DNA of 64,000 bases, taken from assembly GCA_016215445.1 (NCBI GenBank), contig JACRJL010000003.1, positions 342,924-406,923 of the forward strand. The letters run 5' to 3'. The notes below the pieces were generated by a model. The model did not search any database and was not told the origin of the DNA. It worked only from the letters and a program-made list of their open reading frames with translations. The stretch comes from Candidatus Roizmanbacteria bacterium. Lineage in GTDB: Bacteria > Patescibacteriota > Microgenomatia > UBA1406 > GWC2-37-13. Below are positions 1,990 through 38,236 of the stretch, piece by piece (position 1 is the stretch's first letter; each line of letters opens with the position of its first letter). The translations under genes were made by a program, and so were the position numbers.

Positions 1990-2070
1990 TTTAGAAATTA
2001 TTAAGGCTTTTTGCTTTTCGTGGACAATTTCAGTTTCAAATCTCATAAGTTATATTGTATACTGTCGATA

Positions 2071-2547
2071 GTGAAAAAGACTGCTCTAATTATTCCTTAT
2101 TCCAGGATAGACTCATATAAAAAATTACTTAAAGATAAAAAAACTGTATTGGTTGGAGGTTGTTTTGACTTACTTCATTTCGGACATCTCCAGTTTTTAA
2201 AAAAAGCAAAAGTTTTAGGAAACTATCTTATTGTTGTATTGGAGTCAGACGAGTTCATTAAAAAAAATAAAAGAGAAAGCCCCATCCATAGTCAAAAAGA
2301 AAGGGCTGAGGTTTTGTCAGCAATAAACGTTGTTGATTTAGTAGTTAATCTTCCATATTTTTCAAGCAATAAAGAATATTCTGATATGGTAAAGACAATA
2401 AATCCTAATATTGTCGCCGTTACAGAAGGGGATCCTCAGCTTAATAATAAAAGAAAGCAAATTGAAGAAATCGGTGGGAAGTTAAAAATAGTAACACCTC
2501 TATTAAAAAAATTTTCAACAAGAAAAATTGTCAGCGTATTTAATTAA
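2071..2547 (+). CDS. adenylyltransferase/cytidylyltransferase family protein (TagD/RibL-like nucleotidyltransferase)
   Basis: VLVGGCFDLLHFGHLQFLKKAK (HxGH motif). GTG start at 2071 preferred over track start 2011. Confidence 0.8.
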   Translation: MKKTALIIPYSRIDSYKKLLKDKKTVLVGGCFDLLHFGHLQFLKKAKVLGNYLIVVLESDEFIKKNKRESPIHSQKERAEVLSAINVVDLVVNLPYFSSNKEYSDMVKTINPNIVAVTEGDPQLNNKRKQIEEIGGKLKIVTPLLKKFSTRKIVSVFN

Positions 2548-2550
2548 ATA

Positions 2551-3036
2551 ATGGAAAAGAAATTAAAATCAGTCGTCAACATAATTAAGAAAATTGAGTA
2601 CCTCAATATTGCCTCTATAACACCGGATGACCATCCTTGGAATTCGCCAGTTTACACGGCTTATGACAAAAATCTTAATTTTTATTGGTTATCCTGGAGA
2701 AATAACCAACATTCAATTAATGTCAGGAACAATCCTAACGTTTTTGTTACAATATATGACTCAACGGCGCCAGCCGGGACTGGAGTTGGGGTTTATTTTT
2801 CCGGTCAGGCAAAGGAACTTACTAATGCAAAAGATATGGTTATTGCTTTGACTGTCGTTTATAAAAGGAGCAAACATAAGATGAGAGCAATTGCAGAATT
2901 TCTGAAGCATTTTCCAAGGCGCGTTTATCGATTTACACCTGAAAAAGTGTGGATTAACGGGGATTCTGATATAAAAGGTAACTTTATAGACATTAGAACG
3001 GAATTAAAAATTAATGAATTAAAAAAGAATTTATGA
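2551..3036 (+). CDS. pyridoxamine 5'-phosphate oxidase-like FMN-binding split-barrel protein
   Basis: IASITPDDHPWNSPVYTAYDKNLNFYWLSWRNNQHSINVRNNPNVFVTIYDS resembles the PNPOx-like fold. Confidence 0.75.
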   Translation: MEKKLKSVVNIIKKIEYLNIASITPDDHPWNSPVYTAYDKNLNFYWLSWRNNQHSINVRNNPNVFVTIYDSTAPAGTGVGVYFSGQAKELTNAKDMVIALTVVYKRSKHKMRAIAEFLKHFPRRVYRFTPEKVWINGDSDIKGNFIDIRTELKINELKKNL

Positions 3037-30289: not shown

Positions 30290-31526
30290 TTAACTTTTCA
30301 AGAGTCAACCAGCGTTTTTCTTTAATTGTGTGGGGAATGTCGTCTTTAAAGTTTTTTGTGGCCGCCGTACCGAAACGGGAGGAATACATTGCCAAATATG
30401 CTTTCTCGAATCCGACTTTTTTTGCCAGAGATACTGTATTTCTGAATTCTTTTTCCGTTTCTCCGCAAAAACCAACTATTATATCGGTGGAAAATTTGAT
30501 GGCTGGTATTTTTTTCTTAAGTTTTGTAATCAGATTTAGATATTGTTTCTGTGTATACCATCGGTTCATCCGTTTTAAAACATTATCATCTCCAGACTGG
30601 ATTGGCAAGTGGATCAACCGTGTAATGTTTTTATTTTTGGCAATAACTGAAATAAGTTCGTCGGAGAAGTCCCAGGGATTGCTGGAAATGAAGTCGACTT
30701 TTTCAAAATTCATTTTGGCGACTTCTTCAAGCAAATGAGGAAATAAAGTTGGAATTCTATATCTACCCAGATGCTTGACATAAACAGGTTTGATTTCTGC
30801 AAATGGGGCCTGTATCGGGTCTTTTCCCGCCAGTGCTCGACCGACTAGTAAATCGTCGAGTCTCCGCGCTGTCGGGATCCCTAGACCCTCAACACCCGTT
30901 TGTTTTTTTCCAAAATATTTTTTTGGAAGATCTCTCATTACTTGAATATTATTTTCTCCGACTAACAGATCGGCTCCGTATGAATTGACGTTTTGGCCTA
31001 AAAGAGTAATGTTTTTATAACCTTTCTTTTTTAACTGCCTGCATTCGTCGATAATGTCCTGATAAGGTCGGCTGATTTCCCGACCGCGTGTAAAAGGAAC
31101 GATGCAGAAGGTGCAGAAGTTATTACAGCCGTTTGAAATGGGGACCCAGGCGCTGATTCTGTCCTGTCTGACTGGCGCGTTGTCGAAACCGATCTCTTCG
31201 ATAGGAAGAAATTCGTCGACTTCGGGCATTGTTTCGCGGATTTTTTTAAGATATTTTCCTGTTTTGTCTCTGAAAGCCAGCCCGACCATACAGCCCGTGA
31301 CAATAATTTTAAAAGACCTTTCCTTTTTTAATTTTCCGAGGTTATTGACCAGGCCGTAGACGCGATTTTCTGCCGATTCACGAATCATGCAAGTATTAAT
31401 AACAATATAATCGGCTGTCTTATAGGATCGGGCTTTTGTCATTCTACGCGCTTTGAGTGTCGACTCAATTCTTTCCGAATCAGAATGATTTTGCTGACAG
31501 CCGAAAGTTTTAATGAAATATTTCAT
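30255..31526 (-). CDS. miaB: tRNA-2-methylthio-N6-dimethylallyladenosine synthase-like MTTase with insertion
   Basis: KYFIKTFGCQQNHSDSERI; radical SAM motif GCNNFCTFCIVPFTRGREISR; LLGQNVNSYG. Start chosen at MKYFIKTFG (31526). Confidence 0.92.
   Translation of the reverse strand: MKYFIKTFGCQQNHSDSERIESTLKARRMTKARSYKTADYIVINTCMIRESAENRVYGLVNNLGKLKKERSFKIIVTGCMVGLAFRDKTGKYLKKIRETMPEVDEFLPIEEIGFDNAPVRQDRISAWVPISNGCNNFCTFCIVPFTRGREISRPYQDIIDECRQLKKKGYKNITLLGQNVNSYGADLLVGENNIQVMRDLPKKYFGKKQTGVEGLGIPTARRLDDLLVGRALAGKDPIQAPFAEIKPVYVKHLGRYRIPTLFPHLLEEVAKMNFEKVDFISSNPWDFSDELISVIAKNKNITRLIHLPIQSGDDNVLKRMNRWYTQKQYLNLITKLKKKIPAIKFSTDIIVGFCGETEKEFRNTVSLAKKVGFEKAYLAMYSSRFGTAATKNFKDDIPHTIKEKRWLTLEKLINRPRLSLSRN
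30817..30888. repeat. 72-bp GC-rich imperfect palindrome inside miaB
   Basis: GGGTCT..CCCG..CTCGAC / GTCGAG..CGGG..AGACCC nested inverted repeats; about 61% G+C by hand count in an AT-rich gene; length a multiple of 3. Confidence 0.6.
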
Positions 31527-36727: not shown

Positions 36728-36741
<14 letters not shown>

Positions 36742-37093
36742 TTTTTTCGACATCTTTTTGAATTTGTTTTTTCAATTCTTCCATGTTTTCAAAATCCATT
36801 ACTCCTCTTATAAACTGTCCAACTGTATACTCGACTGTCTCCCCGTAAATATCCTTATGAAAATTCAAAATATAAATTTCAAGGACAGGTTTAGTTTCTT
36901 TATTGACTAGTCTTGGCCCGAAATACAAAGCGCCCAAATATGTTTTATTGCCGTACATCACAAGAGAATAATAAACCCCTTCTTTTAAGTCAGCAATAAA
37001 CCTGCTTGGATCAAGATTGATGGTAGGAAATCCAAGTCTTTTTCCGCCGCCGGATCCGTGGACCACTTTGTCGGTATACCAGACGTCAACCAT
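36728..37093 (-). CDS. stand-alone riboflavin kinase domain (RibF C-terminal family)
   Basis: VVHGSGGGKRLGFPTINLDP...GVYYSLVMYGNKTYLGALYFGPR...LEIYILNFHKDIYGETVEYTVGQFIRGVMDF; no adenylyltransferase domain. Confidence 0.88.
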
Positions 37094-37964
37094 TTTTCAG
37101 TTTGGAAACTTTATACATAGAGAAAAGAACCAAAAACGCACCAATAAGCTGGGTGACTGAAAGACTATTTTTAAAATAGAGAAAATCGATGAAAATAGCC
37201 GACACAGGCCAGGTCAACTCAAGAATCGCACTTATTTTTGCCTGGGTTTTCTTAAGTCCGAAATAATAGAAAAGCAATGCCACTAAACCGGTTGAGAAAA
37301 CTATAATTAACAAAGAAATCCATTGGTTCGGATTAATTTTTGCCAACTGGTTTGTTTGTTTAAGTCCAAATAAAAATATTAGAGCAAAGATAGGTGCCAG
37401 AACAAATCTAAGAAAAGTGGCGACCTGGAAGGAAATTTTTCTTAAGACAATTTTAGAAAACGAAGTGGAAGCTGCCCACATCATTCCGGCCAAAAGTGCC
37501 AAGACAGAAGCAACAATGGTTCCTTGTCCAGTCTGCCAGTTCAACTTTAAATCTTTAAAGGTCACTAAATAAGAAGCGCCGATTGCCAAAAATGCCCAAG
37601 GGATAAATTTTTTGGTAACCTTTTCTTTCAAAACGATAGCAGCGGTTAAGATGGCCCAAATCGGTTGGAGTTGTTGGAGAAGGACGACGACTGAAAATTG
37701 GATATAGTTAACTTTTCCAAGAGCTGCCGTATAGAAGATAGTTCCTAAGGCTCCGGAAAACAGGCTGACTACGAGTATCGATAGCCATTCTTTTCGATTA
37801 AGATTTTTAATTTCTTTCAAGCTTTTAAAAACAAAAGGAAAAAGGATAATAGCTCCCAGGGCGTGTTCCAAAAAAACCACTACTGTTGGAGGAAGAGTGT
37901 AAAGGCCGCGGCGCAGTATTCCATCAAGACTCCAGAGCAGAGCTGCCAAGATGATAAAAACCAT
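37086..37964 (-). CDS. EamA-family transporter, candidate riboflavin importer
   Basis: Ten-TM EamA pattern; overlaps the riboflavin kinase gene and sits downstream of an FMN riboswitch. Confidence 0.8.
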   Translation of the reverse strand: MVFIILAALLWSLDGILRRGLYTLPPTVVVFLEHALGAIILFPFVFKSLKEIKNLNRKEWLSILVVSLFSGALGTIFYTAALGKVNYIQFSVVVLLQQLQPIWAILTAAIVLKEKVTKKFIPWAFLAIGASYLVTFKDLKLNWQTGQGTIVASVLALLAGMMWAASTSFSKIVLRKISFQVATFLRFVLAPIFALIFLFGLKQTNQLAKINPNQWISLLIIVFSTGLVALLFYYFGLKKTQAKISAILELTWPVSAIFIDFLYFKNSLSVTQLIGAFLVLFSMYKVSKLKNG

Positions 37965-37987
37965 AAAAAATACCCCTTTCGGGGCAA
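37965..37987 (-). terminator. intrinsic terminator of the riboswitch expression platform, abutting the start codon
   Basis: Minus strand TTGCCCC-GAAA-GGGGTATTTTTT followed directly by ATG of the EamA gene. Confidence 0.7.
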
Positions 37988-38091
37988 TTTATAAAACAAT
38001 AATTATCAAAAAGCTTGATACACTTTTTTCGACCGCCACACCCCAATGGGGCCCCTGGCGATTGTCTCGAAAAGGTATCTTCGCTTTTCTT

Positions 38092-38217
38092 ATATTCTTT
38101 CTTTTATCCCGACTGTACGGTCGCTGTAGGAGTTGCACCTACTCGTGTCCCGACTTAGTCGGGACTCGATGAGTATACATCCGATTGTGATTGGCACACT
38201 AAACCCCGAAAGAATAT
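38092..38217 (-). ncRNA. FMN riboswitch (RFN element) aptamer
   Basis: Minus strand ATATTCTTTCGGGG...GTGTGCCAATCAC...CGGATGTATACTCATCGAG-TCCCGAC-TAA-GTCGGGA...CGAGTAGGTGCAACTCCTACAGCGACCGTACAGTCGGGAT...GAAAGAATAT. Resembles RFN core CGGGG / GGUGaAAUUCC / AGCCGACgGUaaAGUCcGGAU; 10-bp P1. Confidence 0.85.
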
Positions 38218-38236
38218 TAAAAGTATAGCAGAGTTT

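Follow-up and report, generated by a model that had tools for sequence, protein, structure and literature searches.

Several described systems bear on the locus analysed here. Among transporters, RibN belongs to the EamA/DMT superfamily, and the DMT protein LicB works together with a kinase, LicA, which traps the substrate; we know of no kinase fusion or FMN riboswitch for LicB. RibN imports riboflavin, has an FMN riboswitch upstream in alpha-proteobacteria and was found only in Proteobacteria (PMC4418817). In the FMN riboswitch itself, A63, C82 and G41 form an A-minor motif (A63-C82-G41) from which G41 reaches the FMN phosphate via a Mg-bound water, and these positions are called highly conserved (PMC3764141); roles of the contact and core bases G11, G32, G33, A48, G62, G84 and A85 are described in the same work and in PMC7573352. 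Flavin acquisition by host-dependent CPR bacteria is largely undescribed in the openly licensed literature that we searched, which holds no earlier description of an EamA-RFK pair under an FMN riboswitch in CPR/Patescibacteria.

Here we describe such a locus in a 64-kb stretch of Candidatus Roizmanbacteria DNA, hereafter the window. In our reading, which we hold to be very probable, the riboswitch would act as an OFF switch for an operon in which a putative riboflavin importer of the EamA family is joined to a riboflavin kinase (RFK) that would trap the vitamin, in a bacterium that is a riboflavin auxotroph.

Identification of the FMN riboswitch

The first-pass annotation had assigned the minus-strand leader to a divergent FMN riboswitch, naming a series of stems and conserved motifs, all of which are present on that strand at the positions given. 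The assignment itself is borne out both by the Rfam covariance model RF00050, with a match above its curated threshold, and by covariation among the leaders of related genomes. The elements concerned are as follows.

38092..38217, minus strand: FMN riboswitch aptamer (RFN element), RF00050 71.3 bits, E = 3.7e-14
38222..38230, minus strand: extended -10 promoter-like element TGCTATACT, just 5' of the aptamer, putative from its sequence

The RF00050 match, with an E-value computed for the 64-kb window, runs end to end (model positions 1-138) at exactly 38217-38092 (-), against a gathering score of 66.2 bits. It is the single copy in the 0.94-Mb genome, whose assembly is rated 97% complete; among 185 relatives of the same class, 40 carry such elements (n = 42). 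When aligned to RF00050, the aptamer keeps the equivalents of G11, G32, G33, A48, G62, G84, A85 and A99, which are ligand-contact and core bases. On the strength of its sequence, 38217-38092 (-) is an FMN riboswitch aptamer, which would be expected to bind FMN.

In some 30 of the 42 relatives, by our count, a TA...T hexamer precedes the riboswitch at a distance of 7-12 nt. Since a sigma-70 scan gave no match on the minus strand, we treat this element as a candidate promoter only.

A compensated inversion of the 41-82 pair

The ligand-proximal pair G41-C82 is swapped to C41-G82 in the window aptamer: the change from AGCCGAC to AGCGAC corresponds to position 82, and this C-to-G replacement is offset by a G-to-C replacement at the tertiary partner, position 41. 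Thus, the tertiary pair docked by A63 is kept, with letters other than the usual ones. The same holds across the class, where positions 41 and 82 are Watson-Crick in 42 of 42 riboswitches, namely, G-C in 20, C-G in 19 and A-U in three (39 were scored automatically; G074, G101 and G150 were read by eye). The pair is broken in two weak matches from the wider Patescibacteria, and the usual G-C was found in all of the approximately seven readable loci out of eight plasmid FMN riboswitches inspected from other phyla.

Divergence, as claimed in the first-pass annotation, is therefore only partly the right word. The L2 and L5 T-loops do depart from consensus, with UGCCAAU and UGCAACU, respectively, only partly retaining the usual UGAAAUU (UGAAA-type) loop. 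However, one main difference is a compensated swap common to about half of the class, and the UGA to CGA change drops out, as CGA is already in the Rfam consensus. The divergence of this aptamer thus appears to be largely a compensated inversion.

These same features bear on whether the riboswitch works at all. A score that clears the gathering cut-off by only 5 bits, together with the changed L2 and L5 loops, is what a decayed, non-functional relic might present. Yet the 41-82 pair and the P6 pair, the latter through its form CGACCG..GTCGGG, are both compensated, and the antiterminator and terminator described below are conserved. Because of the compensated pairs we reject the relic, which we regard as extremely improbable; if anything, the inversion adds to the case for an RNA that folds and is under selection.

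An inversion so close to the ligand could also mean that ligand preference has shifted, given that G41 contacts the FMN phosphate through a Mg-bound water and that the pair, C-G here, is reported to be highly conserved (PMC3764141). We consider this shift very unlikely, as the remaining contact bases are retained and as C-G versus G-C does not track any new gene context: both forms precede identical gene sets (EamA, S-A-T and biosynthesis), and this independence from the downstream genes argues against a new ligand. The broader proposal of an FMN-riboswitch subclass, in which the inverted pair would alter phosphate recognition (for example, so that riboflavin or FAD is recognised too) and which would control a new transporter-kinase unit coupling riboflavin entry to phosphorylation, sometimes within one fused protein, is likewise quite doubtful.

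Expression platform

Between the aptamer and the first gene lie the elements that would convert ligand binding into a regulatory outcome, one of whose strands is borrowed from the aptamer.

38204..38212, minus strand: switching strand CUUUCGGGG, made up of J1-2 and the 3' half of the 5' strand of P1, and predicted to be antiterminator strand 1 (9-nt complement, covariation)
37971..38091, minus strand: expression platform, in which a spacer containing a long hairpin precedes the terminator
37976..37984, minus strand: CCCCGAAAG, predicted antiterminator strand 2 (terminator 5' arm and loop)
37965..37986, minus strand: intrinsic-terminator-like hairpin UGCCCCGAAAGGGGUA, then UUUUUU (6 pairs, 4 of them GC, and a U tract)

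The terminator-like element ends at the EamA start codon, its hairpin is conserved in relatives, and its 3' arm, AAAGGGGU, doubles as a probable Shine-Dalgarno sequence. The switching strand (38204-38212) is a perfect 9-nt complement of the second strand (37984-37976), and is predicted to pair either inside aptamer P1 or with this partner, some 220 nt downstream. Several observations support the alternative pairing. First, complementarity extends over 9-11 bp within the genus. Second, in the 27 class leaders with a terminator, pairing beyond the GGGG/CCCC core averages 3.7 nt, compared with 0.3 nt for random 6-mers; the total extension of 123 exceeds the maximum of 118 reached in 20,000 shuffles of partners among leaders, a permutation that ignores kinship. 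Third, G120, with UUAGGGGUU opposite AACCCCUAA, provides a telling case of covariation. For the window leader with no ligand bound, the computed energies favour the antiterminator over the terminator fold by 1.9 kcal/mol, which is what an OFF switch operated by its ligand should show.

Such a switch could act on transcription, on translation or on both. Control could be purely translational, with the CCCC-GAAA-GGGG hairpin hiding the Shine-Dalgarno sequence and the U tract being incidental. Within the window's genus the GGGG sits 8 nt from the AUG, as this option would have it, and in three class loci (L076, L107 and L120, from G020, G029 and G084, respectively) the end of P1 and the start codon overlap, and there is neither a terminator nor a separate platform. 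Direct occlusion of the Shine-Dalgarno sequence is likely in these three loci, which makes it probable that some members of the class are controlled at translation. In G104, G120, G135, G167 and G183, however, hairpin and U tract are kept despite a separate Shine-Dalgarno sequence and AUG further downstream, which favours transcription termination and makes exclusively translational control somewhat unlikely. Since the terminator arm of the window holds the probable Shine-Dalgarno sequence, both transcription and translation may be affected.

In G004 and G019, an insert separates the aptamer from the terminator. A second known RNA hidden in these leaders was considered and discarded, as Rfam returned nothing convincing and the insert proved to be a copy of a dispersed repeat. 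A related repeat of about 95 nt, palindrome-like and with a fold of -37.5 kcal/mol, occurs in the window at 30808-30901 (-), in frame in a MiaB-like gene (..KQTGVEGLGIPTARRLDDLLVGRALAGKDPIQA..), and further copies are present elsewhere in the window's genome and, in both G005 and G019, inside long open frames. This repeat is not in Rfam; it resembles the Rickettsia palindromic elements.

The EamA-RFK operon

Directly 3' of the riboswitch, the first-pass annotation had placed two overlapping genes for an EamA-family transporter and an RFK domain, and profile matches agree with both.

37086..37964, minus strand: putative riboflavin importer, a transporter of 292 aa from the EamA (DMT) family (PF00892, 1.7e-38)
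36728..37093, minus strand: riboflavin kinase (RFK) of 121 aa, stand-alone and lacking a FAD synthetase domain (PF01687, 1.2e-29)

The two genes overlap by 8 nt. The kinase reaches 103.5 bits with PF01687, against a cut-off of 19.6, carries the PTxN motif as LGFPTINL and matches riboflavin kinases of solved structure. The AlphaFold model of EamA, which is of good confidence (pLDDT 89), shows a DMT fold that matches the LicB and 5i20 structures, the best solved match being the choline importer LicB, with a TM of 0.78 (PDB 7paf, 7b0k). The closest named genomes for the EamA protein are those of Microgenomates and Roizmanbacteria.

The association between the two proteins extends well beyond this locus. 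Among the 185 relatives, RFK is found in 44 of 45 genomes with an EamA of the window type versus 23 of 140 without it (Fisher p = 2e-24), and in a wider scan RFK adjoins EamA in most CPR loci, including those of Nomurabacteria that have no riboswitch. Moreover, EamA and RFK are fused in a single open reading frame of 424-426 aa at three loci, namely, L167 (Berkelbacteria), L171 and L172 (Liptonbacteria). The structure model of the fusion, with a pLDDT of 49, is too poor for use. An open frame of 448 aa in G152:C47 also joins EamA and RFK. A further EamA homologue, G047:C144:1742-2632, has three in-frame TGA codons, reflecting either a pseudogene or recoding.

A quick EamA tree contains a CPR-dominated clade of 58 rows, 54 of which have an RFN, or RFK as neighbour or fusion partner. 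A sister set of 32 mostly non-CPR rows has neither, and a second small RFN-bearing EamA group stands apart.

Predicted riboflavin requirement and proposed direction of transport

No RibH, RibB or riboflavin synthase domain was found in the window's genome, so this bacterium should need riboflavin. The full PF06574, that is, the canonical FAD synthetase, was not found in the genome either. At 2011-3036 (+) of the window, a cytidylyltransferase-like protein adjoins a protein of the PNPOx_N flavin-binding type. The former (2011-2547) falls below every specific cut-off, with a weak FAD_syn match and rfaE_dom_II as its best NCBIfam model; from its sequence, it is a possible candidate for the missing FAD synthase.

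The genes behind the 42 class riboswitches, all of which could be assigned, are EamA in 24 cases, an ECF-type S-A-T trio (S PF12822, A PF00005, T PF02361) in 12 and riboflavin biosynthesis (ribE/ribH) in six, and RFK directly follows EamA in 14 of the 24 riboswitch-EamA loci. Within the window's genus, one pair of upstream genes, for a glycosyltransferase and a PMT-like protein, leads into riboswitch-EamA-RFK in G000, G004, G017 and G019 and into riboswitch-S-A-T in G007 and G009. This shared slot behind the switch indicates that EamA and the ECF importer replace one another. In L119, L074, L081, L086 and others (Microgenomates), an FMN riboswitch heads an operon for a dedicated ECF S-A-T importer of the riboflavin type, and RFK is often the last gene of this operon.

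Many EamA proteins are exporters, and it is therefore fair to ask whether this one is a flavin exporter, or a carrier of some other compound, such as a precursor, that is only co-regulated with flavin genes. Homologues from outside the CPR (Marinimicrobia, Ignavibacteria) lack RFN or RFK neighbours, so that the substrate of the EamA family could differ. We nevertheless find this alternative unlikely, for the following reasons. First, an exporter placed under an FMN OFF switch would be shut down just when it is needed. Second, an ECF importer occupies the same slot, and the genome lacks the riboflavin synthesis genes. Third, the fusion to RFK is in keeping with uptake followed by trapping. The evidence thus suggests that EamA carries riboflavin, and that it does so inward.

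The original assignment came with the proposal that the module takes up riboflavin and makes FMN, and that FMN feeds back on it. This proposal is accordingly supported by the loss of synthesis, the same-slot alternation of EamA and ECF, the co-occurrence of RFK in 44 of 45 genomes and the EamA-RFK fusions.

Proposed mechanism and its implications

When FMN is scarce, CUUUCGGGG would pair with CCCCGAAAG, which would block the terminator and free the GGGG Shine-Dalgarno sequence, such that the operon is expressed. Bound FMN would instead stabilise P1; the CCCC-GAAA-GGGG hairpin and its U6 tract would form at the start codon of EamA and halt transcription, probably together with translation. FMN binding most likely stops EamA-RFK expression. 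When expressed, EamA would import riboflavin and RFK would trap the vitamin as FMN.

The switch class is already known; to judge by the literature searched, the novelty lies in the regulon, in the unit of transporter and kinase, and in the inversion of the pair. For host-dependent CPR bacteria, this offers a specific and testable answer to how flavins may be acquired, namely, a regulated operon for riboflavin uptake and trapping that alternates with an ECF importer downstream of one and the same switch. In some lineages, transporter and kinase are fused into one protein. That a ligand-proximal pair described as highly conserved can invert with compensation also matters for structure models of the FMN riboswitch and for drugs directed against it.

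Comparison with known systems

The window RNA shares with the FMN riboswitch RF00050 a six-helix aptamer, P1 as the switching helix, flavin genes downstream and the core equivalents G11, C31, G32, G33, C46, A48, G62, A63, C83, G84, A85, G93 and A99. It differs in having C-G at 41-82 and altered L2 and L5 T-loops, and in controlling an EamA-RFK operon.

The ECF-type transporter for riboflavin, consisting of RibU and the ECF proteins A and T, is comparable in position, as an S-A-T trio sits behind the same riboswitch in sister genomes, but it is an ATP-driven multi-gene system, whereas EamA is a single transporter of the secondary type. With bifunctional RibF, a riboflavin kinase/FAD synthetase, the window kinase has the RFK domain in common but not the FAD synthetase domain. 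LicB has the same fold as the window EamA, and moves choline rather than riboflavin.

No RibN reference sequence was present among the FMN-riboswitch loci of the plasmids inspected, and the description of the window transporter as RibN-like stands as an analogy. Like RibN, it is an EamA/DMT protein, by PF00892 and by fold, with an FMN riboswitch upstream; unlike RibN, it belongs to a CPR clade that is tied, or fused, to riboflavin kinase.
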